In this document: positions 1,740 to 38,482 of the stretch, one piece after another
How positions within the stretch are numbered: position 1 is the first letter of the stretch
Layout: each line of letters starts with the position of its first letter
Notes under the pieces: model-generated
Databases searched by the model: none
Seen by the model: only the letters and a program-made list of their open reading frames with translations
Told to the model about the DNA's origin: nothing
From: Ignavibacteriaceae bacterium
GTDB lineage: Bacteria > Bacteroidota > Ignavibacteria > Ignavibacteriales > Ignavibacteriaceae
DNA: 64,000 nucleotides
NCBI GenBank assembly: GCA_013360295.1
Contig: JABWCL010000014.1
Location: forward strand, 1 to 64,000
Reading direction: 5' to 3'
Position numbers and translations under genes: made by a program

Positions 1740-2705
1740 ATGAACAAATTTAAGCACACACTGCTCTCCTTTGTTGGGACAAATGACGCGGGTAAACTTA
1801 TAGGAAAGAATGACGGCGCAATACTGACCGCGCTTACAAATCAGAAATTCGATGAAGCGATACTTCTATGGACCAGAACGAACACCAGGGAAACAGACTA
1901 CGAAAAAACAGCGGCATACCTTAAGGATGAAATAAAGAAAAGAAAACTCGCGAAAAAAACTTTTCTTGCTGAACTGCCGATTAAAAACGTAACCGACCAC
2001 AACCAGATCTATATAACCCTAAAAAACTTCACCGATGCTCTGCCGAAAGAAAACATTGTTTACACCGCGGCAATCTCCTCCGGCACACCGGCTATGCAGG
2101 TTTGCTGGATACTCCTCGCGGAATCGGGAGACTTCTCGGAAACAAATAAATTAAACCTCATCCAGGTACGCGACCCGAAATTCGGGAAGTCGGAGAATAT
2201 TCCCGTAAAGATAGATACGGCGCTGCCGAAGATCATCCGTCTGAAGGAAGAAGTTGACACACTTAAGAAAGACCTGATCCCGTCCGCCACTCTTGGTTTC
2301 ACCAAGCCCGGACTGAAGATCGGCGATGTGCAGGTACCGCTTTCGCCGATTGAGTTATCTTACTATATGTACTTTACCGAGCGTGTTCTTGAAGGTTTGG
2401 GCGACGAGAAAATCTCCGGCTTATGGGCGCCGGCTCATTTCCTTGATAAGATTATCAAACTTCACGAAGCTCTCTTCCCCGCGCTTGATACTAACCGGAT
2501 GGATCTTATTAAGATGAAGAAAAACAATATAAGTTTATCCATGACCACCTTCCGCGGGAACATCTCCAAACTGAATAAGAAAATTCGTGATGCGGTGAAT
2601 AATGAAAGCATATCATCAAATTATGAAGTCGCAGCCACGGGCGGGAGGGGGTACCGGTTTTACGGGATAAGAGCTGAAAAGGGGAAATTTATGTTGGGGG
2701 ATTGA
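1740..2705 (+). CDS. CARF (RtcR-type) and winged-helix regulator
   Basis: A 321-residue protein with two parts. Residues about 5-165 look like the CARF-like ligand-binding domain found at the N-terminus of RtcR-type sigma-54 regulators: GTND at 13-16, an ILLWTRTN strand around 41-48, and the conserved SSGTPAMQ loop at 113-120 followed by a hydrophobic helix. CARF domains elsewhere bind cyclic oligoadenylates or other nucleotide ligands. Residues about 195-315 end in a helix-strand pattern with GRGYRF, as in OmpR-type winged helices, in place of the AAA+ domain of RtcR. The likely role is a ligand-controlled DNA-binding regulator. It ends 76 bp before the ATPase operon in the same direction, so it may control or be part of that system. 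No Shine-Dalgarno sequence is obvious. The CARF call is fairly sure, the wHTH call moderate, and the ligand unknown. Confidence 0.7.
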   Translation: MNKFKHTLLSFVGTNDAGKLIGKNDGAILTALTNQKFDEAILLWTRTNTRETDYEKTAAYLKDEIKKRKLAKKTFLAELPIKNVTDHNQIYITLKNFTDALPKENIVYTAAISSGTPAMQVCWILLAESGDFSETNKLNLIQVRDPKFGKSENIPVKIDTALPKIIRLKEEVDTLKKDLIPSATLGFTKPGLKIGDVQVPLSPIELSYYMYFTERVLEGLGDEKISGLWAPAHFLDKIIKLHEALFPALDTNRMDLIKMKKNNISLSMTTFRGNISKLNKKIRDAVNNESISSNYEVAATGGRGYRFYGIRAEKGKFMLGD

Positions 2706-2781
2706 GCGTTGCGGCAATGTTGCGAACGGAATACCCGCTCATATTTCCATTATGTTTGATGTATCATAAAGTTTAAATAAA

Positions 2782-4437
2782 ATGAAAACGACAATTAAAA
2801 TAAAAAATTTTAGAAGTCTCGAGGATGTTGAGATAGAGTTAGCCCCATTAACTATTTTAGTGGGGCCTAATGGGGCGGGAAAGTCTTCACTGTTGAAGGC
2901 ACTAAGGTTTATTGGGGTAAATTTGAATAGGAAATTTTCAAGTGTGCCAACAAACACTATATATAAAATCGATAGAAATCTTGATCTTGGAAATTATGAA
3001 CAAATAGTTACACAAAATGAATTAAACAGAGAAATAGTGTTTGAATTACATATTATTTATGATCTTAAATATTACCCCTTAAATGACTTATCTGGTTTGT
3101 GGGATTATAAAAGCATTGATAATTTTAAGCTGAAGTTGGATAAGGAATTGAATGATGAGCTAATAAAGAAATTGTATGAGGTCTTTGGTAGTTCAAATAG
3201 GTTGGCTAAATTTTACTTAAAACACAATAATATAATTGATGTAACTCTCTCCGCAATATTCTCTTCTTTTGATGGCAATAAAAATTTGAAGATATTTGAA
3301 ATCACCAATAACACTAATGATGATAAATTATTCTATAATGATTTTTACGGAGGAAAACAGAGATCAAAGATAAATTATGGGATATTGAGTATCGATGAAG
3401 ATATTAAACCCGTTCTAAACAAAATTATAAATGCCATACCATGGACCTTAAAACGTCCTTACCCTGATAAAGTTTTTCTAAATAAAATAGGTTCCGTTAT
3501 TACAAGGTCGAATTATTTAAACAGTTTGCCTAAAAAGAAAAAAGATAAAATATTATCAAAACTATTTTTGGTGGTGAGTGGCATTTATCTTTATTTTCCA
3601 GCGCTTTTTAGGAAATATCTGGATATGATTCATTTTCCATCATTGCGTAAGAACGACTTAAAGTTAAAGGAGGGGAACAAAAGAGCTATTATGAATAATC
3701 GTTATTTGGATAACTTCAATTTAATCCCTGAAAAATCGGTTTTTGAGGATTTTGTAAAAGTTTTCCCCAAACTTCGTCAACTAGACTTTCGCCACAACAA
3801 AGACGGTCGGGGCATATTACTGACAGAAGAGTATATAAATCAGCAAAGAGAAATAAAAAAAGATTTTTCTGGAACTTCATTTCATTATAATCTCTTCGCA
3901 AAACTGTTTCAATTAAGGTTGTGTATTGGTGTGTACAAAAAAGGTACCGATATATATATAGTGGGTTTAAATGGAGGGGAATTCAATTATAAAGAGGCCA
4001 GTAGCGGTTTAACGCAACTATTTCCAATCATTGCCGACTCCGTTAAAGACCCAACTATTAATCCCCAAATCTCATTCATTGAGCAGCCAGAACTACATTT
4101 GCACCCTAAACTACAAGCTAAGCTAGCTAATATTTTAGTTACCGAAGATTACTGTGAGGATGATCCCTTCTTATATGAGGTTGCCCCGAGATATATTATA
4201 GAGACCCACAGCGAGCATATTATACGTGCATTTCAACTTAGAATAGCAGAAAAACATGATGAACCTGGAGTGTACCATTTTTACTATTTTGATCAAAAAG
4301 ACGATGGCATAACCAAAGTGATCAAGCTTGAAACTGATAAATTGGGAAATTTTATAACCCCTTGGCCAAATGGGTTCTTTGATGAAGCCGCGGATTTATC
4401 AATGAAACTACTGGAAGCGCAAATTAGGAGAAATTAA
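2782..4437 (+). CDS. AAA ATPase, DUF3696-like (OLD/ABC-type)
   Basis: A 551-residue SMC/ABC-type ATPase. The Walker A motif GPNGAGKS is at 28-35. The C-terminal ATPase half has SGLTQL, the combined Walker B segment EQPELHLHP near 430-440, and the ETHSEHII switch region near 473-480. This order (P-loop at the extreme N-terminus, long insert, ExPExHLHP, THS) is that of predicted ATPases in defence loci such as OLD, Septu and DUF3696 proteins. The tail PWPNGFFDE matches the DUF3696 ending. No TOPRIM nuclease follows the ATPase, so any effector must be another protein. It opens a four-gene operon, and the next gene starts 2 bp after its stop. The base composition is more AT-rich than the metabolic genes, consistent with transfer. 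Confidence 0.8.
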   Translation: MKTTIKIKNFRSLEDVEIELAPLTILVGPNGAGKSSLLKALRFIGVNLNRKFSSVPTNTIYKIDRNLDLGNYEQIVTQNELNREIVFELHIIYDLKYYPLNDLSGLWDYKSIDNFKLKLDKELNDELIKKLYEVFGSSNRLAKFYLKHNNIIDVTLSAIFSSFDGNKNLKIFEITNNTNDDKLFYNDFYGGKQRSKINYGILSIDEDIKPVLNKIINAIPWTLKRPYPDKVFLNKIGSVITRSNYLNSLPKKKKDKILSKLFLVVSGIYLYFPALFRKYLDMIHFPSLRKNDLKLKEGNKRAIMNNRYLDNFNLIPEKSVFEDFVKVFPKLRQLDFRHNKDGRGILLTEEYINQQREIKKDFSGTSFHYNLFAKLFQLRLCIGVYKKGTDIYIVGLNGGEFNYKEASSGLTQLFPIIADSVKDPTINPQISFIEQPELHLHPKLQAKLANILVTEDYCEDDPFLYEVAPRYIIETHSEHIIRAFQLRIAEKHDEPGVYHFYYFDQKDDGITKVIKLETDKLGNFITPWPNGFFDEAADLSMKLLEAQIRRN

Positions 4438-4439
4438 TA

Positions 4440-5318
4440 TTGCAACCCATCGCCCTTGATCTGGAACTTGTCAGATCAGTGATTAACGAATGGGGGGATT
4501 ACAAGGTTCAGCGGGAATTTCACAAAATGATCGAAAACCTTGAGCGGTATCATTCTGTTCCGGTGGATCAAGTTGATGGCAAATCATCCTGGTTTGAGGG
4601 ATTTAAGGAAATAATTAATCGCATTACCGATCAGAACCTTCAAAAGATGATTACTGATTTACTTGGACCCAGAAACATAAAATATTTTCCCGCCAGGTTG
4701 AATGACAACTCGAAGCTATTAGAATCATTATCAGATTCTACGCCGGATAAGATAGGGCTTGAACTTAAAAATCATAACGAAGGTGTTCGGAAATTTTACA
4801 GTATTAACTCATTTAATTCCTCAGAACATCCGCCCGAATGCAGATTATTCAGAATCCCCAAAACCATAAATATAAAGCCAGGGTATATTTTTAGCGATCT
4901 TTCCTGGTTGCTTCCTTTTATCAGAAATTCAAGGAAAATCGAGTTTTGCGATCTGTTTCTCTTCAAGAATCCCAAATTCGATGATGACGCTGAGTTCGTT
5001 AAATTGATCATCAAGTCAATTCCCGAATTAAGCGAAGTGGTCATTCATTGTGAGCCGAATCCTTTGAATATCCTGCAAAAACAGGTTCAATCTGAGTTAA
5101 AAAAATTAGCCAGAGGAAAACTAAATGTTGAAATGCGTGCATTTAATCCCCCAACAAAAGGGGTTAATCACGACAGATTTATTCTCGTAGATACCAATAA
5201 AATTTCGATAAGATTTACCACCAGTTTTAACAATCTGAGAAAGACAAAAGAGGGTAAATTCAGGGCGCAAGATGCTTTCCTAATTGAAATCTCAAATGGA
5301 AGGAAATACTATGATTAA
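4440..5318 (+). CDS. Putative variant phospholipase D-like nuclease (HxR motif)
   Basis: A 292-residue protein with no strong overall match that I recognise. Residues about 150-290 resemble one PLD-like half. HDRFILVD near 243-250 fits H-x-K-x4-D with Arg in place of Lys, and TTSFNN follows where PLD enzymes have GSxN. Related HxR variants occur in some PLD-like domains, so it may be a nuclease or a nucleic-acid/phosphodiester-binding protein. The first 130 residues are helical and unassigned. I accept the TTG start at 4440 because AGGAG lies 9 bases upstream and the frame begins only 2 bp after the ATPase stop, implying translational coupling. The next gene begins 18 bp downstream. The PLD assignment is tentative; the gene itself is certain. 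Confidence 0.5.
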   Translation: MQPIALDLELVRSVINEWGDYKVQREFHKMIENLERYHSVPVDQVDGKSSWFEGFKEIINRITDQNLQKMITDLLGPRNIKYFPARLNDNSKLLESLSDSTPDKIGLELKNHNEGVRKFYSINSFNSSEHPPECRLFRIPKTINIKPGYIFSDLSWLLPFIRNSRKIEFCDLFLFKNPKFDDDAEFVKLIIKSIPELSEVVIHCEPNPLNILQKQVQSELKKLARGKLNVEMRAFNPPTKGVNHDRFILVDTNKISIRFTTSFNNLRKTKEGKFRAQDAFLIEISNGRKYYD

Positions 5319-5336
5319 TTTATTTGGCGTGATGGT

Positions 5337-7454
5337 ATGACAATTGATTTAGTTCATCTAAAAAAGGAATTGACTGCTTCTCAATATTCGGCTATTAATT
5401 CCTTTTCTGACTTTCTTAGATCAGATAAACAGGTCTTTATATTAAAAGGTTATGCGGGTACGGGTAAAACTTACCTTATAAAAATTTTATGTGACAATTT
5501 AAAGAAACACGATAGGCAATTTTACCTTATGGCGCCAACCGGCAGGGCGGCTAAAGTCATCAGGCAGAAAACAGGGTTTAAGGCATATACCATCCACAAG
5601 TCCATTTACTCCTTTGAAGAACTGGCAGAATTAATCCCACAAACCGACTCAGCAGACTCCTCGTTTAAGTATTACTATAAACTCAGAGTAAACAACGATA
5701 ATTCGAATTGCATATATATAATAGATGAAGCCTCTATGATTTCGGATGTATATACTGAAGAAGAGTTCTTCCGGTTTGGGTCAGGGTATTTATTAAAAGA
5801 TCTTTTCGATTATTGTAACACCAATTCGCCTGGACTTAAGCGAAAGATAATTTTTGTCGGTGATGACTGTCAGCTCCCTCCCGTAAATACTAATTTTTCA
5901 TTTGCTCTATCCGAGAGTTACATAGAGTCAACTTATAATGTTAAGTGCGTTAGCGGGGAACTAACGGAAGTAGTACGACAGGTGGGTAATTCTGGTATTA
6001 TTGAGATTGCTTCGAAGATAAGAGAATCAATCTCATTAAATAATTACAATTATTTTAGCATCAACTGTGCAAAGCCGGATGTTATTCAAATAAACCCGGA
6101 ATCTGTCGTGGACACTTACCTCAAAAATTACGGTGAAAATAGTACCGTGATAGTGGCCGGTACAAACAAGCAGGTTTATGATTATAATATGGAAATAAGG
6201 AGCAGGCTTTTCCCAGGTAAAGCGGAAATCACACCCGGAGATAAGATCTTAATAACAGCTAATTCGTATAACCGCGCCATCGAATTGCTTAACGGAGACA
6301 TCGGTGAAGTTGTTGAGGTATCTTCCAATATAGAGGTTAAGTTAGTACCTGTCAGGAACAACGGGGAAAATATAAAAGTTGATTTAAAATTTCGTGATGC
6401 AGTATTGCGATTTCCTGATTCTGAAGGGACGCCAGTTGATATTGCCTGTAAGATCTTGGAGAACATTTTAACTTCAGATCAGAGGTCATTATCGTCTGAT
6501 GAAACCAAAGCCCTATACATTAATTTCAAGATGTCCAATCCGGAACTTCACCCAAAATCGCAGGAGTTTAAGGATAAGATAAAGACTGACCCTTATTTTA
6601 ACGCACTTAGAGTTAAATACGGATACGCTCTAACTTGTCATAAAGCTCAGGGCGGTGAATGGGAAAATGTTATTGTGGACTTTTATTCAAATACCGGAAT
6701 CTTAAACAGGCAGTATTTCCGGTGGGCATATACCGCCGTTACGAGAGCGAAATTCAGGCTGTATTCTGTTAATGCCGTGGATTATAAAGCCCCCATTCAG
6801 CTTCAGGATACCAAAGAACCGCTTGGTATTACCATTCCGGAATTCGCTCCTGACTTTCATCCTCTTTTGTTGGCATTCCCTGGGGATAATATCCTCTTGA
6901 GAAAACTTTATTTGTTGGTTGTAAATACGCTCAAAGACACCAACTTTAGTATTACTAAAGTGGAACACCTGAATTGGTGCGAAAGATATTTGATCACTGA
7001 TGAAATTAATTCTTACTGCTTTGATGTGTATTATAACAAGAAAAATCAGGTAACAAATATTAATTATATTCCGCCTAAGGGGATTGTTATTGAAAATGAT
7101 CTGTCATTAAGATTAAAAATGATCTTAGGGTCAATCGTAAACAAAAAATTGCTTGGTTTCAATCCGGTCAAGAGAATACTGGCAGAAACAGACTTTAACG
7201 ACAAGTCTTTGTTTTTATTTATACCCCTTGAAAAGGCATGCGCTGCACTGGAAAAGGAAAAAATCCTTTTGTATGAGTTAAATAGCAGCGATTGGAAATT
7301 GCAGTTAAAATTCTTCCGTGGAAATGATCTTGCTTGTGTGGACTTATATTATAACTCCCATAATTGCGTGACCTCACTTTTCAGAATAACAAAAGAAAGT
7401 TCTTCCGTGGAACTTTTAGATATTGTTCAAAATATTCTGTTGGAGACCTTATGA
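5337..7454 (+). CDS. SF1 helicase, RecD/Pif1-like
   Basis: A 705-residue ATP-driven DNA helicase. Motif I is GYAGTGKT at 39-46, motif Ia is APTGRAAK, motif II is IDEAS near 129-133, motif III is GDDCQLPP near 175, motif IV/V has the VVRQ segment, and motifs V/VI appear as TCHKAQG near 434 and YTAVTRAK near 464. This is the AAA_30 plus UvrD_C_2 layout of RecD2/Pif1-type SF1B helicases. About 200 residues after motif VI have no domain I recognise and could bind a partner. Its stop overlaps the start of the next gene as ATGA. Within this operon it is likely to unwind or translocate on DNA for the ATPase and PLD-like protein. The helicase call is firm; the defence role is inferred from context. 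Confidence 0.88.
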   Translation: MTIDLVHLKKELTASQYSAINSFSDFLRSDKQVFILKGYAGTGKTYLIKILCDNLKKHDRQFYLMAPTGRAAKVIRQKTGFKAYTIHKSIYSFEELAELIPQTDSADSSFKYYYKLRVNNDNSNCIYIIDEASMISDVYTEEEFFRFGSGYLLKDLFDYCNTNSPGLKRKIIFVGDDCQLPPVNTNFSFALSESYIESTYNVKCVSGELTEVVRQVGNSGIIEIASKIRESISLNNYNYFSINCAKPDVIQINPESVVDTYLKNYGENSTVIVAGTNKQVYDYNMEIRSRLFPGKAEITPGDKILITANSYNRAIELLNGDIGEVVEVSSNIEVKLVPVRNNGENIKVDLKFRDAVLRFPDSEGTPVDIACKILENILTSDQRSLSSDETKALYINFKMSNPELHPKSQEFKDKIKTDPYFNALRVKYGYALTCHKAQGGEWENVIVDFYSNTGILNRQYFRWAYTAVTRAKFRLYSVNAVDYKAPIQLQDTKEPLGITIPEFAPDFHPLLLAFPGDNILLRKLYLLVVNTLKDTNFSITKVEHLNWCERYLITDEINSYCFDVYYNKKNQVTNINYIPPKGIVIENDLSLRLKMILGSIVNKKLLGFNPVKRILAETDFNDKSLFLFIPLEKACAALEKEKILLYELNSSDWKLQLKFFRGNDLACVDLYYNSHNCVTSLFRITKESSSVELLDIVQNILLETL

Positions 7455-8869
7455 ATAATGACCTTAACGAAATGAGACAAAAAGCGATGGATTTTAGGAA
7501 GCGCAAAGATTACGATTCCGCGTATCCTCTTTTTGAAAAACTATGGAACAGCCGCAAAGAAACCGAAAGTAAAGATAATATTAAATGGGATGGTTGGGGG
7601 TATGCCTTGTGCCTGAATCATTTCAAAAAATATGATATGGCATTGCAGGTATGCAAAGAGGTTTATAAGATTGATAAAAATTTTAATTATATCAAGGGTG
7701 TGTATGCCTTCTGCCTGAATCAGTTCAAGCGATTCGAGGAGGCGCTCAGTATTTGTAAAGAGGTTTACAGCAAAACCAAAACCAACAAATACATAATAAG
7801 CACTTATGCATGGGCGGCCTATAATTTATATATAAATAAGTTTGACATTGAAAAAGGGAATATTGAGGAATTGCTTAAATACGCAAAAGGGATAATTGAT
7901 TTAACAAGAAATACACCGGAGGATCTTGCTCGAATTGAAACCGTACTCAAAATAATTGACAACCTTGAAGCGATCGGAAAGTGGAATGATGTTCTTGAGT
8001 GGTCTAAATATTTATCGCCGGAGAAATTAAATACGGAGAAATATAATCACACTCTGCCTGATGGCAAGAGAGTGGCGCTCCCTTCCCCAAAAGAGAAATG
8101 GTTTTCAAAAGTTACAAAAGCGTATGAAAAACTTGCGCGTTTCCAAGAATGTCTTGATTTAACTAACCAAGCGTTGGAGTTTTTACCCGATGACGTATGG
8201 TTGACCAGACGCAGGGCGATATGTTTGGATCATCTCGGTCAGAATGAAGAGTCGTTGAAATTATTAACGTCCATTGCCTCAAGGAAAAAGGAGTGGTTCA
8301 TTTTTAAGGATATAGCTTCCATTCATTATGAAAAGAACGATCTGGAGAACGCATTAAAGTATTGCTATGAGAGCAGTCTGCACGCAATCAGAAACCCCAA
8401 ACAGGAAAATTTGTGGGAATTATATTTTATGATAGCGCAGATTCACAAAAGAAATAATAACTCAGATAAAGCAAAGAAGTACTGTCTTCTCTCCGGGCTT
8501 TTACGAACCGAGCATGAATGGAAGATTCCTCCGAAGTTGCAGGAACTCGCCCTTGAATTAAAAGTCAACTTCGATCAAACACAGAACTCAGTAGTTTTAA
8601 TAAAGGAATTATCCAAGGATTGGGCGGAGAATAAGTATAGCGGGAAAGAAATAAAGTCCGGTATAATTAAGACGATAATGCCAAGCGGTAAAAGCGGCTT
8701 TATATCAACCGGAACACAACCGGATTATTTTTTTAGAATGAGTGAATTCAAGGGAAATAAAAAATATTGTGTAGAAAAAACCAAAGTTACTTTTTATCTC
8801 GAGAAATCATTTGATAAGAAAAAGAATAAGGAAACGGAAATCGCAGTAAATATAAATGTGGCGGAATGA
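7451..8869 (+). CDS. TPR protein with C-terminal cold-shock domain
   Basis: A 472-residue protein. I place the start at ATG 7451 because it overlaps the helicase stop (ATGA), typical of coupled genes; an in-frame ATG at 7364 would overlap the helicase by 90 bp. Residues about 1-390 carry repeated helical pairs of tetratricopeptide type, for example those around YALCLNHFKKYDMALQVCKEVY and its next copy. Residues about 405-472 resemble a cold-shock/OB fold: GIIKTIMPSGKSGFIS matches the GxVKxFxxxKGFGFI strand, then DYFFRMSEF and a VTFYLE strand. Such OB folds bind single-stranded RNA or DNA, so the protein may be a nucleic-acid sensor or scaffold for the operon. The TPR part is firm and the CSD part fairly strong. 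Confidence 0.75.
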   Translation: MNNDLNEMRQKAMDFRKRKDYDSAYPLFEKLWNSRKETESKDNIKWDGWGYALCLNHFKKYDMALQVCKEVYKIDKNFNYIKGVYAFCLNQFKRFEEALSICKEVYSKTKTNKYIISTYAWAAYNLYINKFDIEKGNIEELLKYAKGIIDLTRNTPEDLARIETVLKIIDNLEAIGKWNDVLEWSKYLSPEKLNTEKYNHTLPDGKRVALPSPKEKWFSKVTKAYEKLARFQECLDLTNQALEFLPDDVWLTRRRAICLDHLGQNEESLKLLTSIASRKKEWFIFKDIASIHYEKNDLENALKYCYESSLHAIRNPKQENLWELYFMIAQIHKRNNNSDKAKKYCLLSGLLRTEHEWKIPPKLQELALELKVNFDQTQNSVVLIKELSKDWAENKYSGKEIKSGIIKTIMPSGKSGFISTGTQPDYFFRMSEFKGNKKYCVEKTKVTFYLEKSFDKKKNKETEIAVNINVAE

Positions 8870-9677: not shown

Positions 9678-10028
9678 ATGACCTCTCTTAGTGAGACTTT
9701 ATCATTACCGGTTGAGATCAGGAACCTCGTTACAGAGTTTAAGGAGGAAACCGCGGTTATATTAGGCGGAGATCTCGATAGAGTAATTCTCTATGGTTCG
9801 TATGCGCGGGGCGATTATGATCCGGAGTCGGATGTTGATGTTATTATCCTGTTGACTAAGCCAATTCATACAGAGAAGAAATCAGCAATTTCTGATCTGG
9901 TTTTCCGCTATTTAATTGACAAGGGTCTTTTGTTTTCGATTATTTATTATGAAACGTCGTATTATAATGAGTGGAAAAACCATCTTGATTTATTTGTTTT
10001 CATTGAAAATGAGGGTGTTGTAATCTGA
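9678..10028 (+). CDS. MNT-type nucleotidyltransferase (antitoxin)
   Basis: A 116-residue minimal nucleotidyltransferase of the DNA polymerase beta fold. The signature GS-x10-DxD is intact: Gly40-Ser41 and Asp52/Asp54 in GSYARGDYDPESDVDV. In the studied MntA-HepT pairs the MNT protein adds AMP to a tyrosine of the HEPN toxin and silences it. The gene shares one base with the following HEPN gene (TGATG), the usual two-gene toxin-antitoxin layout. Here the HEPN partner is of a different HEPN type from HepT, so the AMP-transfer mechanism is inferred. Confidence 0.85.
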   Translation: MTSLSETLSLPVEIRNLVTEFKEETAVILGGDLDRVILYGSYARGDYDPESDVDVIILLTKPIHTEKKSAISDLVFRYLIDKGLLFSIIYYETSYYNEWKNHLDLFVFIENEGVVI

Positions 10029-10432
10029 TGGAAAAACGCGAAGAAATAATAAGATACCGGATCAGGAAGGCAAAGGAAGAACTTAAAAATTCGGAACTGA
10101 GCTTTATTAATTCTCTGTATAACCCGTGTGTAAGTTCTTCGTACTTTGCGATTTTCCATGCTGCCCGTGCCCTTTTGGCGGCAAAAGGTCTGGTATCGAA
10201 GAAACATGCCGGGGTAATTCATCTTTTTTCCGCGCATTTTATCAGACCCGGGTTAATAAATCCTGAATATGGAAAAATGATCAGATCAGCATTTGAACAA
10301 AGAAATAATAGCGATTATGCTGATATGTATTATGTCGATAATCAGCAAGCAGAAATTCAGTTGACTAATGCAAAAGAATTTCTTAAGATGGCAGAATCTT
10401 TTTTATCTTCGGAGTATGGAATTAAAGTGTAA
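10028..10432 (+). CDS. HEPN-domain protein (putative RNase toxin)
   Basis: A 134-residue all-helical HEPN protein of the PF05168 style, with SSSYFAIFHAARALL near 36-50. The C-terminal motif is QRNNSDY with Arg92 and Tyr97, where many HEPN ribonucleases have R-x4-6-H. The catalytic His is thus not in the usual place; the Arg and Tyr are, and the Tyr may be the modification target or this may be a degenerate type. It is the downstream partner of the MNT gene with a 1-bp overlap. Likely a toxin acting on RNA, held off by the MNT protein. Confidence 0.8.
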   Translation: MEKREEIIRYRIRKAKEELKNSELSFINSLYNPCVSSSYFAIFHAARALLAAKGLVSKKHAGVIHLFSAHFIRPGLINPEYGKMIRSAFEQRNNSDYADMYYVDNQQAEIQLTNAKEFLKMAESFLSSEYGIKV

Positions 10433-30875: not shown

Positions 30876-31247
30876 TCATCGAATGTATCGTTTTAAGCCG
30901 GATGTTAGTTTTAAAACATTGAAATTGATCAGCAATCCGATCTTCTTATCAGCGAATTTCAAGTAAGTTAAAATCTGCGCGGTATGAATTTCATTCAGAG
31001 CTTCGACTGATTTTTATTCGATGATCACTTTATCTTCCACGAGCAGATCAATTCTATATCCGCACTCAAGTTTTATATCTTTATAAATTATCGGCACGGG
31101 TATTTGCCTTCCAATTTTATACCCTGATTTTGATAATTCATAAGAAAGGCATTCTTCATACGCTGACTCCAAAAGGCCCGGACCGAGTTCTTTATGCACC
31201 TCAATCGCGCATCCAATTATTGCCTTAGTTAACTCTTCATAAACCAT
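30876..31247 (-). pseudogene. GxxExxY-family protein broken by in-frame stop
   Basis: The first 77 residues are a clear GxxExxY protein: AIIGCAIEVHKELGPGLLESAYEECL, then the GYRIDLLVEDKVIIE strand that resembles a PDDEXK-type nuclease core. A TAA at 31014-31016 stops translation just after VIIE. The same frame carries on unbroken as KSVEALNEIHTAQILTYLKF to a TGA at 30876-30878, exactly the conserved second half. The family has Ile or Leu at the stop position, so one base change (TTA or ATA to TAA) explains it. The intact length would be about 123 residues. A sequencing error is possible. Confidence 0.85.
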
Positions 31248-31358: not shown

Positions 31359-31572
31359 TTATCTCAACCGCTGTGTCAATGCCAGCAATTCACGGACACT
31401 ATCCTCTCTGAATAACTTCTCCATTAGGCGTCGTCGTTATCCTCAAGCCGTTTAACTAAAACGAGGCAAGACATCTTTTCTGTCGTCGTCAACGGATTCC
31501 ATATCATTCCGACCAGAACTTATCCCAGAGGGGGTCTATTTTTCGTTTTGAGGTGGTGAGATTAGCGAGCAT
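31359..31572 (-). pseudogene. Relic of hsdM (type I modification subunit)
   Basis: Five bases after the Avs-like gene an ATG at 31572 opens MLANLTTSKRKIDPLWDKFWSE, which matches the start of type I HsdM proteins (RxxIDxLWxKFWSGG). A TGA follows at 31504. Shifting one base inside the G-run restores WNPLTTTEKMSCLVLVKRLED, the next conserved block (NPLTxIEQxSYLLFxKRLD), until a TAA at 31424. A third overlapping frame reads MEKLFREDSVRELLALTQRLR to 31359. The catalytic methylase domain is absent, so this is an internally deleted, frameshifted remnant. Confidence 0.7.
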
Positions 31573-31577
31573 TCTGG

Positions 31578-34500
31578 TTATCTTTTACTAAGCATTGTTT
31601 TATGTTTACCTTGAATTCTATTGTTTTGTAAATAATATAAACCGTAATATTCATTTCGTCCAAGATATTTCGTCTCGGTAGACCACCCGAGAATATTTTT
31701 TTCGCCCGTTATTTTCCAAAGGATGGTGAGGTTGTTTTTTTCTAAATATTGTTCAAGCGAACTTCTCCGGATCAATAAAGAGGAAATTCCGTTTTCATAG
31801 ATTGATGGATCAAAACAGATCAATTCGTCTTCTTGATTTAAAAAGTACCCATCCTTTTTTGCATGTTTCATACATAATTCCTCAAAAATAGTTTTAGAGG
31901 GAATATAAAAACTGATCGCTTCGTCTTTTGAACAGTCATATTCCTCCTCCCAAAGGTAGTTTAATACCGTATCAATACAATTAAATCGCTTTCTATCAAT
32001 TGTAATTATTTTTCTGTCAGAATAAGCAAGACTTTTAAAAGCAGGAGCCCAGTAGTATTCTCGTAGAAAGATTTCATAATGCGTTGAATATGTGGGGAAT
32101 TCATGTATCATTTTATAGTTGTCACTGAACAATTTAAGTATTGAACTAACATCTTTTTTTTCTATAATAATTGCACGTATATCCATACTTAAATATTTTT
32201 GAGGTGTCTGCGTCGAGTATGTTTCCTCATAAGTCTTTTCCTCCCAATCATTGTAGGAAAACATATTGAACCATTCATCACCTTTATCATCTTTTACTAA
32301 AAGTAAGTCCTTGCAATTTGGGAAACCTGTCTTTGTTCTGATCCATTTGGCCTGTTCTCCATCCCAATTTGGGGTAAATTTGGGTGTTGACCAATGGGTG
32401 GTTTTTGAAACTTTAGAAGTTTTACTAGTGGATTTAATAAGTGAAGTAGGTTCAAAATCTCTCAAATAAGGTAACCAAGGCCCCTCATATTTTTGGATGG
32501 TGCCTGAATATCCGTCCCTAATACTATGATTATCGGAAGTTCGAGCTAATAATTCATGAAAAGCAATCCATTGATACTTTTTTCCGATCCTCTCGGTTTT
32601 TTGAGTCCCCCTACCTAAATTAGAGAGTGAGCTATCGAAAAAACCATGCTTTTTAACATCAAATCCCAACTGAAATATTTTTTTAATTATCCAATTCGAC
32701 ATTTTTTCAGTTTTTATATCTGGCCAATAGTAGAAAGCTGAATCAAGGACATATCGACCAAAATCTCCATAACCACCCATTGATTCAGTTCTCATTGAAT
32801 GTATTAGAGGATTCTGAGCATAATACTCTTTCTGAAAATCTTTAGAACCTGGCTGTTTAAATAATTTGTCTATAGCCCGTTTAAAAGGAAATCTCGTGGG
32901 GAAAGAGCTTATATAGGGTGGTTTAAAAAAGTTATTGCGTGGGGTGAATTGATGATGTGAAATAGCATGCTCGATTATTCCACGAGCATAATCACGAAGA
33001 AGGATATGGGGCAAAACCTCTCTACTATAAAAAACTAAATTTTCGATATATGCTGCAAATTCAATGATTTCCTCACTTGAAGAAGAACGTAAAGTGCAGC
33101 CATAGGCAATACCCATAAATCTCTCTTTTATGTAAACATCATCTACGTCGAGAAAGATATTTATCAACTCCTTTATCAAGTGAATTCGCTCGCTAAGCAA
33201 TGATATAAGCGCTTTTGAAGCTCTATCACGTAGGAAACGATTAGTAGATGTTAGAAACCAGATAAGAATTATCGAAATAAGTTTGATTGATTCATCGCTA
33301 ATTTTTGATTTATCTGTATCAGACCATGCCCATCTAATTATACTGTCAATGGAGCAAAATTCGGTGCCCTCGCTAATGTAATAATTATGGTATAAATAGT
33401 AGTTCCATAAAGAATCACGACTCGGCATATCGTGACGTTTGAGTATGTTGTGAATGTAAACACCATTAAAAGAATGCCTTTCACGCCAAGCAATAGTCAT
33501 AATTGTGTTAAATAACTTGTGAACGTATTGATTCTCTATGAATACTTGGCTTTTTAAGAAAGTTTTTATCGGCATACTAATTATCGGCATATCACGCCAG
33601 CGAATGCTCTCAATAAAAGAGTTTATGATCGTTGAATGTGCTGAATACTCCGGTAAAAATTCAAATAATTCTTTTTTTAGTCTTTCTGGCACAACAATTG
33701 ATAACGCTTCCAACAAACCCTGTTGCCAATAAAGATCATTTTCGTGTCTAATAAATACTTTCTTAAAAGTAGCGATATCGTTTTTGGTTCTTAAATACTC
33801 GTCACATATATATATTGCTCGGTAATAATCCCATACTCTTTCGTATGAGAAATATACTATTTCATTTGAATCATCGGAAAAGTCCCTTTGGATCCTAAGG
33901 ACACCAATATTTACCAGTTTATTTAATATGTTGGATCCTTTATTTGGTATAATATGATTTAACATATTACAAGCATCCGAAAAGTTTGGGAGCTTATCCT
34001 TTTGAAAATAATACTCTAGAAAAGCATTTAAGAATTTTTTTAGATAATCAATTGAATGTGATAAATTGGCTTCATCAATAATTCTTTCATTTATTGCATT
34101 ATGGTATGTGCTTATAACTTCTGAAAAGCTGGACGGGTAATCTAATGTTCTATATTGTGAACCAGATGATAACCCTTCGCAATAAATCTTTAGAAAGAGA
34201 GGGTTGCTAAATTCAGGTATTAGTAAAGGTATATTTGGTGATAGAATCTTATAGTGTCTAAAAAAGAAATTCGCAGCTTCTATTTCCTTACCCTGAAAAC
34301 CCCGAAATTCGTATGATGTTAATTTTGCAATTTTAACCAAGGAATCTGGTAAAATACTTTTTTTGAAAGTAGTTCTGATGCTAATAATTAAACCTAAATT
34401 GGGATACTTTTCAATTGATTTAACAAAACCAGCAATATTGTTTTTCCAGATATCCTGGCTCTTAGATTCATTTATCGCGTCAATTATTATAATAAATCTT

Positions 34501-35723
34501 TCGCCACTATTTGATACTTTTGCGCTCAATGCCCCTAGAAATTCATCTTCGTCGCAATTTATACGTAAAATATTGTTCAGTATTTGCGTCCAAATATTAT
34601 CATTATTGCTGAAGTATTGTCCCAGTAGAAATAGGACTGGTTTATTTATTTCAGCTCTGCTTTTAGCGAAATCTGCCAACAAATGTGATTTTCCGACACC
34701 GGCATCCCCGGAAATGATCAGATAAGGGGATATCGCGAGAGAGGAATAGAAACCACCAAGAAGTTGTATTAAACTCTGGATCTCATATTTAGCTTTATGC
34801 AAGTCTTGTTTTATGGGGTCAGAAAAATTAGCAGATCTTATATTTGCAACAATCTCAGGATAAGTTGTTATCCTTTCCAGAGTGGATGAAAAGTACATAT
34901 CTAACAAATGCAGTCTTTCTACTGATTTTAAAAATGAATCTTTTCCTAATGATGAGAAGTTAATACTATCATAATCAGTGATAAATTCATTCAGTAGTTT
35001 ATTGCCCTCGGAAGATAATTCTCTCCCAAGGTGATCAAGTGTTTTTTGAGTCATTCGTAAAACCCGATTCTTCTGTTCTAAATAATATTTTCGCAGTTCC
35101 TCACACATTGTTAAAGCAGAAAAAAGCAGAGTTTTATCTAACGGGAAATTAATTTCTGGACTATATCTTGCTCCAAGATCGGCGATTGTGCGGGTAAGTC
35201 TTTCTTTAAACCAATCATCTGAATATTCATGTTTACTGAACCAATACTCGACAAGCCCTTTATTTTTAGTGGCAATTAGGCGACCGTGGATTTCATGTGC
35301 ACCCCAATAAACTATCTCGACTGCCCTCCTTTTCTTTGTGGCATAACGCCTCAACTTCGTTTCAAATTCAATCCATTTTTTCATTTGCGAATCGCCTGCA
35401 GAACCCCCACCGGATGTTCTATTTATCGGTAAGCAAAAATAATATTTGGTCAGCTTCGGGTAATTGTTAAGTGCATCCTTAAAAGATTTCTCCATTTGTC
35501 CAAACTGGCTTTGTCCTAAAGAAAAGAAATATTTTGCTTGCCAGCCATAGAGCTCTTTATTATCAGGTTCCCAAGCAGCTTCGATTCCACCATCAGGTGG
35601 GGCAAATCTCATAAATTTGCCAATAATGTTTTCGTTCTTAGCTATTTGACATACCAGTTCTTCAAATCCAGTATTTTGGGAGCCATTCAGTGGTCTAATT
35701 TTTTTCCAATCAATATCTCGCAT
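31578..35723 (-). CDS. Avs-like STAND NTPase with N-terminal Mrr-like nuclease
   Basis: A 1381-residue defence protein. Residues 18-67 form a PDDEXK/Mrr-like nuclease core: Glu21 in GFEELV, Asp44 and Glu48 in PDGGIEA, and Gln62-Ala-Lys64 in GWQAKYF. A STAND/NACHT-type ATPase follows with Walker A GDAGVGKS near 337-345 and Walker B IIIIDAINES near 403-412. About 900 residues of helical, probably sensing, sequence end with KYQWIAFHELLARTSDN, a segment I associate with Avs-type proteins. In Avs systems the C-terminal part recognises a phage protein (terminase or portal) and triggers the nuclease. It begins 2 bp after the HsdR-like stop, so the two are one operon. The exact Avs type is not assigned. 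Confidence 0.8.
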   Translation of the reverse strand: MRDIDWKKIRPLNGSQNTGFEELVCQIAKNENIIGKFMRFAPPDGGIEAAWEPDNKELYGWQAKYFFSLGQSQFGQMEKSFKDALNNYPKLTKYYFCLPINRTSGGGSAGDSQMKKWIEFETKLRRYATKKRRAVEIVYWGAHEIHGRLIATKNKGLVEYWFSKHEYSDDWFKERLTRTIADLGARYSPEINFPLDKTLLFSALTMCEELRKYYLEQKNRVLRMTQKTLDHLGRELSSEGNKLLNEFITDYDSINFSSLGKDSFLKSVERLHLLDMYFSSTLERITTYPEIVANIRSANFSDPIKQDLHKAKYEIQSLIQLLGGFYSSLAISPYLIISGDAGVGKSHLLADFAKSRAEINKPVLFLLGQYFSNNDNIWTQILNNILRINCDEDEFLGALSAKVSNSGERFIIIIDAINESKSQDIWKNNIAGFVKSIEKYPNLGLIISIRTTFKKSILPDSLVKIAKLTSYEFRGFQGKEIEAANFFFRHYKILSPNIPLLIPEFSNPLFLKIYCEGLSSGSQYRTLDYPSSFSEVISTYHNAINERIIDEANLSHSIDYLKKFLNAFLEYYFQKDKLPNFSDACNMLNHIIPNKGSNILNKLVNIGVLRIQRDFSDDSNEIVYFSYERVWDYYRAIYICDEYLRTKNDIATFKKVFIRHENDLYWQQGLLEALSIVVPERLKKELFEFLPEYSAHSTIINSFIESIRWRDMPIISMPIKTFLKSQVFIENQYVHKLFNTIMTIAWRERHSFNGVYIHNILKRHDMPSRDSLWNYYLYHNYYISEGTEFCSIDSIIRWAWSDTDKSKISDESIKLISIILIWFLTSTNRFLRDRASKALISLLSERIHLIKELINIFLDVDDVYIKERFMGIAYGCTLRSSSSEEIIEFAAYIENLVFYSREVLPHILLRDYARGIIEHAISHHQFTPRNNFFKPPYISSFPTRFPFKRAIDKLFKQPGSKDFQKEYYAQNPLIHSMRTESMGGYGDFGRYVLDSAFYYWPDIKTEKMSNWIIKKIFQLGFDVKKHGFFDSSLSNLGRGTQKTERIGKKYQWIAFHELLARTSDNHSIRDGYSGTIQKYEGPWLPYLRDFEPTSLIKSTSKTSKVSKTTHWSTPKFTPNWDGEQAKWIRTKTGFPNCKDLLLVKDDKGDEWFNMFSYNDWEEKTYEETYSTQTPQKYLSMDIRAIIIEKKDVSSILKLFSDNYKMIHEFPTYSTHYEIFLREYYWAPAFKSLAYSDRKIITIDRKRFNCIDTVLNYLWEEEYDCSKDEAISFYIPSKTIFEELCMKHAKKDGYFLNQEDELICFDPSIYENGISSLLIRRSSLEQYLEKNNLTILWKITGEKNILGWSTETKYLGRNEYYGLYYLQNNRIQGKHKTMLSKR

Positions 35724-35725
35724 AG

Positions 35726-38482
35726 TTATCCGTTGAATTTATTTAATAGTGCTATTATTTCGCTTAATTCATCAACCGTAAACAACTTCTCCACCGCATT
35801 ATTTCCAAAATTAGTAAATGGTTCTTCGTAAAGGTCGGCGGGTTCGAGTTTGCGTCTCTGCACAAAAACGCTCTGCACTGCCCGGAGGAAACGGGACTGG
35901 TTAGCGTTGTAATTGTGCTCAAGTATAAATGTATCAAATGCTTTTTTTACTACATCTTCGTAACTGGGTATTTTTTCAATATTCAGAGTATGCTTAAGAA
36001 AGTCCACAAAGTTTCCGACTCTCACTCCGAATGCCTTAAGCAAATTTTCTTCGTCAAGCGAAATATCAGCTGAGTTCAGTTCCTTACTTAAGGTAAGTTC
36101 AAGATCAAGCATATCGTCAGTATCAAGTTCAATTCCCTCGCGCAGTTTAATAATTGCAGGGTGTTTATCCGCAAGTTCAAGAATTTTCTCTTCGACTTTC
36201 TTCCGGTATTCCTCAACATAAACCCGCTTATTCTCTTCGCGGAGGATTATCCACTTACGCGATTCTATAATATCATCAAGTCCAAGTTCAATGACAGCAG
36301 ATTGTTTCTCTTTCTTGAACTTCATCACCGGAGCGAGAGCTTCCTTAACAGTGTCTATCTTCTCAAGCGAATTAAAATATGCGGGGTAATCAGACTGATT
36401 AAGATTCAGTATTTCCATAATGACCCTAATATGTACCGCAACCTGCGCCAGGTTTGTAGGGAGCAGGGAAATTTCTTCTTTTATGTTTTCAACCGAAACA
36501 GTAAGTTCTTTCTTCTGAAGGAAAGTAAGCCCGAAGCGTTCCATTTTGCTGGTAAAGAAAGCGATATCATTATTAATTCCCGGCACAAAACGAAGGAGCG
36601 GGGCAATCTTAAGCCGCAGGAATTCAATCTTATCGCGTGTGATGTAATTCCAGAATTCATTCTGCCAGGCGTCGCGCACTTCTTTATAAACTTTTTTAAC
36701 AGAAAATGATTCAAGAGGTATCTCCGCGATATCCGCGCGGAGGTCTTTGATTATCCTTTTAGCGTCGGGGGAATTCTGATCACCGAGGAAAAGTTGCAGT
36801 TTTGCAAGCCGTGTGTTAAATATTACAACCTTAACGGGTAGTTGCCTGTTGTTATCCTCTCCCTTTGCCTGCACAAAGTTTTCCCAATAGTCTATGATAA
36901 GGAAATTTTCTTTCCTGCCGTTTGGCAGCCAGTCTCGTACCTTGCAGGCTTCATCGTTACGTGTGCCCCTACCGATCATCTGCCAGAATTTTATCTGCGA
37001 TGCGACGGGTTTCATAAAGGCAAGATTTACAATTTCGGGAAGGTCAACTCCGGTATCAAGCATATCAACGGATAATGCAATCCGCGGGTAGTTTTCCTTT
37101 TTGAATTTTTCCAAAAGCCGGGGCGCGCGTTCCATCTTTGAGTCAATCACCTGCACGAGTTCAGGATATTGCGGATACATTTCATTAAATGTTTCCATTA
37201 AACGCATCGCGTGGTTATGAGTAACCGCGAACACGATTGTCTTTCCGGGGAGCTGACCGGACTTATCCATAATGCAGTTATCCATAAGTTCTTCCCACTG
37301 TGCCCGGAGTGTATCGCGGTTGGTTACCTTCTTCTCAAGGTCAGTGCCCTCGAAGTTGATATCCTCAGGGTCAATCCCGTTTGAGCGGAGAATATTCTTT
37401 TCTTCTTCGGTAAGGTCAATTCCTTTAATACCTTTTCTCTGGAACCGTGTCTGTGCCGCGTAAACACTGAAGTCAACCAAATATTCTTCACGGACTGCCT
37501 CATCAAATGTATAGAGAAAAGTGGGTGACTTTCCGTCGCAATCGAAAAACTTAAAGGTATCGCGATCAATAAACTCAGCGGGAGTGGCAGTCAATCCGAT
37601 TTGCACGGCATCGAAGTAAGCGAGTACATCCGTAAATTTGTTATAGATCGAACGGTGGCACTCGTCTGAAATTATTACGTCAAAGTCAGCGGGAGAAAAT
37701 TTATTGTAACATAGTTCAAGTGTCTGAAGGGTTGAAACATAAACCCGCGCATCAGTTGAAAGTGAATAAGTGCGAATCCTTGTCCTGGATTCGTTCGGGA
37801 GGTGAGCCTTAAAGCCATCCGTCAAAGCCTGATCCACAAGGCTGTCCCTGTCCGCGAGGAACAAAACTCTTTGCGCCGCGTGTGCTCTCAGAAGTACATC
37901 AATCAGAGCCATAGTAGTGCGCGTTTTACCCGTCCCCGTTGCCATTACCAGCAGGGCTTTACGCTTCTTCTTAACGTCAATCAGTTCGGAAACTCTGCGT
38001 ATCGCTTCAACCTGATAGGCGCGGTTGACAATTATTTCATTTATCTTTCTTGTGTTGAGAGGTAACTTGTGCTGTTTAAGATATAGAAGGCGTTCGAGGT
38101 TTTTACGGGAGAAGAAGCCGGCAACGTGGCGTTCAGAGTAAGTTTCGGAATCCCAGAAAAAGATGTCCTCTCCGTTTGCCATAAATGCAAAAGGACAGAA
38201 AGACTGTTTCTTCTCAATTTCGGTTATATACTGATAGACTTGTTCTTTCCCGACTCGGGGATCACGGCTGGTGCGCTTTGCTTCCACGACAGCGAGCACT
38301 TCGCCGTTGGCGCGGTAAAGGCAGTAATCGGTAAATCCCGTTACCAGGGACTTATCATAATTCAGAACCGGAATTTCAAACCCGACCTGCGTATGGTCAG
38401 CCAGATTCCAGCCCGCCTTTTCCATTTGAGGATTTATCAGTGAATACCTGGTTTCAGGTTCATTCAAGCCAGGAGGAGACAA
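35726..38482 (-). CDS. hsdR: Type I restriction subunit R (HsdR-like), orphan
   Basis: A 918-residue nuclease-translocase. The N-terminal PDDEXK nuclease has Asp52 in FTDYCLY and Glu67-Ala-Lys69 in VVEAKR. The SF2 motor has Walker A ATGTGKT at 181-187, the DECH box at 273-276, a TATPAEF motif III and a GRGTRN motif VI. The C-terminal helical domain is that of EcoEI-type R subunits. The open frame starts at TTG 38482; no ATG lies upstream in frame before a stop at 38507, and the family homology begins at NEPETR, so the start is uncertain but little is missing. Normal function needs HsdM and HsdS; only an hsdM relic is nearby. It heads the operon with the Avs-like gene. Confidence 0.85.
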   Translation of the reverse strand: MSPPGLNEPETRYSLINPQMEKAGWNLADHTQVGFEIPVLNYDKSLVTGFTDYCLYRANGEVLAVVEAKRTSRDPRVGKEQVYQYITEIEKKQSFCPFAFMANGEDIFFWDSETYSERHVAGFFSRKNLERLLYLKQHKLPLNTRKINEIIVNRAYQVEAIRRVSELIDVKKKRKALLVMATGTGKTRTTMALIDVLLRAHAAQRVLFLADRDSLVDQALTDGFKAHLPNESRTRIRTYSLSTDARVYVSTLQTLELCYNKFSPADFDVIISDECHRSIYNKFTDVLAYFDAVQIGLTATPAEFIDRDTFKFFDCDGKSPTFLYTFDEAVREEYLVDFSVYAAQTRFQRKGIKGIDLTEEEKNILRSNGIDPEDINFEGTDLEKKVTNRDTLRAQWEELMDNCIMDKSGQLPGKTIVFAVTHNHAMRLMETFNEMYPQYPELVQVIDSKMERAPRLLEKFKKENYPRIALSVDMLDTGVDLPEIVNLAFMKPVASQIKFWQMIGRGTRNDEACKVRDWLPNGRKENFLIIDYWENFVQAKGEDNNRQLPVKVVIFNTRLAKLQLFLGDQNSPDAKRIIKDLRADIAEIPLESFSVKKVYKEVRDAWQNEFWNYITRDKIEFLRLKIAPLLRFVPGINNDIAFFTSKMERFGLTFLQKKELTVSVENIKEEISLLPTNLAQVAVHIRVIMEILNLNQSDYPAYFNSLEKIDTVKEALAPVMKFKKEKQSAVIELGLDDIIESRKWIILREENKRVYVEEYRKKVEEKILELADKHPAIIKLREGIELDTDDMLDLELTLSKELNSADISLDEENLLKAFGVRVGNFVDFLKHTLNIEKIPSYEDVVKKAFDTFILEHNYNANQSRFLRAVQSVFVQRRKLEPADLYEEPFTNFGNNAVEKLFTVDELSEIIALLNKFNG

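Follow-up and report, generated by a model that had tools for sequence, protein, structure and literature searches.

The DNA analysed here (the window, a stretch of 64,000 nucleotides of contig JABWCL010000014.1 from an Ignavibacteriaceae bacterium) contains an intact gene for HsdR, the motor and nuclease subunit of type I restriction systems, which is followed directly by an intact gene for an Avs protein. Restriction by HsdR requires the M2S complex (PMC11411939), so the HsdR of the window, where hsdM and hsdS are missing, is probably idle. The locus therefore raises the question of whether the two genes form a defence system together, as the first-pass annotation proposed, or are the remains of a larger one. 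The latter is very probable: a type I locus of the order hsdR-[cargo]-hsdM-hsdS, in which Avs2 took the cargo slot, then lost hsdM and hsdS, and Avs2 now acts alone beside an idle orphan hsdR.

Organization of the locus

On the minus strand, from 38482 to 31434, the order is hsdR, 2 bp, avs2, 5 bp and the decayed 5' end of an hsdM gene. The features are the following:

35726-38482, minus strand: hsdR-like gene (type I restriction motor/nuclease subunit with an EcoEI-type C-terminus), intact ORF of 918 aa, orphan
31578-35723, minus strand: avs2 (N-terminal PD-(D/E)XK nuclease, STAND NTPase, C-terminal sensor), intact ORF of 1381 aa
35220-35723, minus strand: N-terminal nuclease domain of Avs2, residues 1-168, predicted from motifs and fold
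31434-31572, minus strand: non-working 5' scrap of hsdM, codons 1 to about 47, with a one-base deletion and a later stop, from DNA alignment
30896-31247, minus strand: GxxExxY-type PDDEXK_3 ORF (PF13366, 91 bits), small inserted element beside the hsd locus

The stop codon of hsdR and the ATG of avs2 are 2 bp apart (TAA-CT-ATG), the stop codon of avs2 lies 5 bp before the ATG of the scrap (31572), and the avs2 frame has no internal stop. The TTG start of hsdR has the same position as in close relatives. Rereading of the ORFs and the alignments agrees with the anatomy first described: an intact hsdR, an intact avs2 and a frameshifted hsdM start. The span assigned to the locus, 31359-38482, includes both ORFs and the scrap, but its start lies beyond the detectable scrap, since the DNA at 31370-31433 has no match among the related loci that were compared.

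In the PDDEXK_3 ORF, a TAA splits the E and the K of the E-x-K catalytic motif, and CACGGAG-type repeats are found near this ORF. The protein encoded at 38802-39572 matches no Pfam family.

The Avs2 protein

The second gene is, by the NCBIfam cut-off, that of a full-length Avs2: the protein scores 1021.7 bits against the equivalog model NF041813, whose curated cut-off is 1000 bits. The PADLOC Avs2 profile aligns to residues 3-1377 of the 1381. Among solved structures, the closest in sequence is the Avs2 of PDB 9o4e, which is matched with 1217 bits by a profile built from seven Avs2 sequences (including that of the window). This match is confined to profile positions 168-1400, and the 9o4e structure may thus carry a different N-terminal effector. 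The Walker A (GDAGVGKSH at 339) and Walker B (IIIIDAINE at 411) motifs of the STAND NTPase are both intact.

The catalytic pattern of the N-terminal nuclease (F20 E21 E22, D44xGxE48 and Q62xK64) is invariant in 20 Avs2 N-termini. The AlphaFold2 model of residues 1-168 has a pLDDT of 90.7, and its best structural match is the nuclease of Avs4 (8dgf; Foldseek E 6e-6; VIA Z 13.4, rmsd 3.1 over 149 residues). The nuclease is therefore predicted to have a fold like that of Avs4. Avs1-4 have a nuclease effector and are triggered by phage packaging proteins (PMC12931631). The protein of the window resembles known Avs2 (AVAST type 2; NF041813, 9o4e) in its full-length STAND NTPase, its C-terminal sensor and its score above the cut-off; it differs in its effector, predicted to be an Avs4-like nuclease, and in the location of its gene within an hsd locus.

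HsdR and the missing HsdM and HsdS

The nuclease, the SF2 motor and the C-terminal domain that are expected of a type I HsdR are all found in that of the window, which has the Pfam domains HSDR_N, ResIII (126.8 bits), Helicase_C and EcoEI_R_C (78.4 bits) and the motifs FTDYC50, VEAKR66, ATGTGKT181, DECH273, LTATP297 and QMIGRGTR501. It has relatives that are 77-83% identical. It is like the EcoEI-type HsdR (PF08463), except that it has no cognate M or S.

The scrap (31572-31434) is 74-76% identical in DNA to nucleotides 1-140 of related hsdM genes (those of G451 and G148), with E values down to 3e-23. A one-nucleotide deletion follows its FWSG codons, and it differs at 8 of the 20 codons that are invariant across ten functional HsdMs; when each of these ten is left out in turn, it differs at 0-3. 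A tblastn search of the window with related M and S proteins gave the scrap as its sole match and no hsdS, and the next 19.9 kb of the contig contain nothing credible (best S match, E 0.08). The HsdM and HsdS that a type I system needs at the same locus are therefore absent from the window. Their loss with both large frames left open, which had been proposed from the start, is borne out.

The assembly (92 contigs, estimated 100% complete) contains five other type I M+S sets, named C16, C69, C91, C43 and C68 after their contigs. Each has its own R, and none belongs to the HsdM lineage of this locus, so the HsdR of the window is an orphan in this assembly. The expectation that no functional matching hsdM or hsdS would be found elsewhere in the genome has thus held. 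The nearest set is C68, whose HsdM is about 48% identical to the HsdMs of the lineage; its HsdR is 39% identical to that of the window, and the genome has no further HsdR match. The cargo of the C68 locus (L019 8726-10231, plus strand) is a deaminase fused to a RecG-C/AlbA-like part, and a reverse-transcriptase-like gene is present downstream of its hsdS.

The slot between hsdR and hsdM in related loci

The loci of HsdRs that are at least 50% identical to that of the window were surveyed in genomes of the same family and class. R and M are both visible in 11 of them (G148, G263, G451, G658, G680, G529, G267, G602, G556, G660 and G427), and the gap between the two genes is filled in all 11, with 1.0 to 6.9 kb of cargo each, R being partial or ended by the contig in some. 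The cargo is mostly of defence type and differs almost every time, including among close hsdR relatives: SIR2 with a kinase, SIR2, a PIN pair, AAA_13 with PDDEXK_15, a D12 methylase set, a C5 methylase with a Z1 helicase, an Eco57I-type methylase, a PRTase-CE ATPase, an NA37 protein or PDDEXK_4-like ORFs. Some of the related loci have a further slot between M and S, which is occupied by Fic or YhcG proteins. The deaminase-like fusion occupies the R|M gap both at C68 and in its copy in G441, a genome of the same genus; R directly adjoins M in the more distant loci of G184, G373, G458 and G101. R and the cargo usually lie close together, whatever the cargo is; in several relatives they are about 5-45 bp apart.

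The GC content of the cargo is lower than that of both R and M in all 13 loci with cargo. Similarly, in the window, GC is 43.9% in hsdR and 44.6% in the hsdM scrap, compared to 34.1% in avs2, and GC3 is 46.5% in hsdR and 29.7% in avs2. The AT-rich avs2 thus points to separate histories of the two genes, and the GC3 gap and the variation of the cargo among close hsdR relatives both speak against a shared one. A search for an empty site in G441 found the two flanks on different contigs.

A defence gene lies on the same strand between R and M, and other cargo takes this place in all 11 related loci: Avs2 is the cargo of the R|M slot of the window. The earlier suggestion of an original type I locus with an Avs gene between R and M is supported by the scrap and by the same layout in relatives. 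Defence genes placed between hsd genes are known from PrrC, which is embedded in the EcoprrI operon and guards restriction (PMC12707154), from DarTG2 in a type I operon of EPEC (PMC12255303) and from TgvAB in that of VPI-2 of Vibrio cholerae, which protects even with an inactivated HsdR nuclease (PMC11411939). The Avs2 described here is a further example of this known embedding. The lineage of the window differs from these operons in that its cargo lies between R and M (DarTG2 sits between S and R) and varies by locus, and in that M and S are gone in the window. The precedent of TgvAB indicates that embedded genes can act independently.

Like the window, the loci of G263, G267 and G529 contain hsdM scraps, which align to the hsdM of the same locus over 71-98 bases with 78-80% identity; the order is cargo, hsdM scrap, small inserted element and full hsdM. 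Decayed 5' scraps of hsdM after the cargo were located by DNA alignment at:

L087 7870-7971, minus strand
L212 10352-10440, plus strand
L211 5661-5735, plus strand

Two of these match the hsdM of another genome slightly better than their own, and the three may be scars of cargo exchange. A complete hsdM stands beside the scraps in relatives, which means that a scrap can form while hsdM is still there and gives no date for the disappearance of M and S. For this reason, the scrap was rejected as a clock. On L212, an hsdR of this lineage that lacks about its first 158 residues (5970-8267, plus strand) follows directly on the hsdS of a different type I locus.

Occurrence of the hsdR-avs2 pair in other genomes

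A pair without M and S was expected to recur if it worked as a unit, and the search for it in other genomes came back empty. The pair of the window was found at none of the best-scoring 80 of 501 Avs2 loci in named genomes. An Hsd-like gene is present in the flanks of 5 of these 80, as judged by blastp against this genome's own Hsd proteins, which very distant Hsd genes can escape, and with some flanks short owing to contig ends. In a sample of the phylum, Avs2 matches occur in 13 of 395 genomes, including that of the window, and the pair is absent from the ten loci read among the 12 others. Among the loci with Avs2, that of G184 has a complete R-M-S set with Avs2 after S, and in G284 Avs2 is beside a fragment of R from another family.

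A first scan of the genome contigs with a single Avs2 sequence gave no match. In plasmids, 75 records match Avs2, all below 60% identity. On a Treponema contig (L158 8787-14092, plus strand), an hsdS-like gene lies 2 bp before avs2, and no hsdM or hsdR was recognised nearby.

Is hsdR maintained by selection?

The intact hsdR with all its motifs and the rejection of omega = 1 on its branch would count against an idle orphan. This rejection holds for the whole branch only, which is near 10 substitutions per codon with saturated synonymous sites, so that constraint acting once M and S were lost cannot be told apart from earlier constraint. The motor part of hsdR evolves at a normal rate (7.9% of the tree length). 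For the hsdM scrap, nonsynonymous divergence is about 0.18 per site (95% range, 0.08-0.35). If the scrap is taken as a clock, which is unsafe because it may be a junction scar, a neutral hsdR would have acquired 7-34 stops and none is observed; with the same unsafe clock, the chance of an hsdR without stops or frameshifts is 3e-8 (6e-4 at the lower bound of the 95% range).

A relaxation of the C-terminal part of hsdR was considered and rejected: the excess of private changes (10/86 vs 8/312) has p 0.001 at a post hoc cut and 0.19 at the Pfam domain boundary.

Three loci without hsdM (G433, G396 and G503) have an R that is cut off inside the contig, the N-terminal part alone being left. Decay of hsdR in close relatives was one of the observations that the first-pass annotation had named as refuting its two-gene reading, and these three loci provide it. 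No second intact R without M was found among the related loci that could be judged, the window being the sole case.

Alternatives and proposed function

A two-gene defence system, in which Avs2 would recruit or switch on the motor and nuclease of HsdR once M and S had gone, is very unlikely. The two frames are intact, 2 bp apart and probably co-transcribed, and hsdR is undecayed though hsdM is a scrap; adjacency and open frames are the sole positive evidence for a joint function. The pair is however absent from the named and phylum loci described above, its GC shows separate histories, the cargo of the slot is variable, close spacing is usual whatever the cargo, and Avs2 passes the cut-off of a single-protein family, so the proposal is not upheld. 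There is slightly more room, though still little, for an hsdR selected for a helicase-nuclease role of its own, independent of M/S and unrelated to Avs2. The absence of stops and frameshifts and the normal rate of the motor part argue for it, but the clock behind the former is unsafe, R is truncated in three hsdM-less relatives, and no further intact R lacks M among the judgeable loci. The claim that HsdR has been kept by selection since M and S were lost, defending alone or switched on by Avs2, is also quite unlikely; if true, a type I restriction subunit would have gained an M/S-independent role.

Avs2 might also be a guard of the restriction system, like PrrC in EcoprrI, and take over when a phage blocks restriction. 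PrrC is a known precedent (PMC12707154), and the R|M slot is occupied in all related loci with a visible M. Yet most Avs2 genes lie outside hsd loci (only 5 of the 80 best-scoring have an Hsd-like neighbour), the reported triggers of Avs1-4 are phage proteins (PMC12931631), and M and S are absent in the window, which makes a guard quite improbable. Still less credible, and extremely unlikely, is a function of the orphan HsdR in trans with the M and S of C68. This locus contains the one further HsdR match, together with both partners, but its R and M are distant from those of the lineage, and its own R is intact.

An Avs2 that acts singly, like known Avs proteins, would be the functional remainder of the degraded locus. 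A conserved phage packaging protein would bind its C-terminal sensor, the STAND NTPase would assemble, and the N-terminal PD-(D/E)XK nuclease would then cleave DNA, which would halt the infection. HsdR, without the sequence recognition of M2S, is most likely an idle orphan. Either the loss of M and S is too recent for it to have decayed, or its transcription persists solely because hsdR sits upstream of avs2.

One lineage of type I systems thus appears to serve as a docking site whose defence genes change: the content of its gap differs between almost all genomes, and cargo such as avs2 can outlive the remainder of its host restriction system. The R|M gap of this lineage is a practical place to look for candidate defence genes. 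A spacing of 2 bp or an adjoining pseudogene scrap is no proof of a partnership between genes.

Other genes in the window

A candidate defence cluster is present at 1740-8869 (plus strand). It comprises a CARF/RtcR-like protein, an AAA_15 ATPase, a weak NsnC-like protein, a TOTE-type TBP/helicase (PDC-M16A, 720 bits) and a TPR protein (weak PDC-M16B match). It is followed at 9678-10432 (plus strand) by a gene pair encoding a nucleotidyltransferase (MNT) and a HEPN protein, a common type of toxin-antitoxin.
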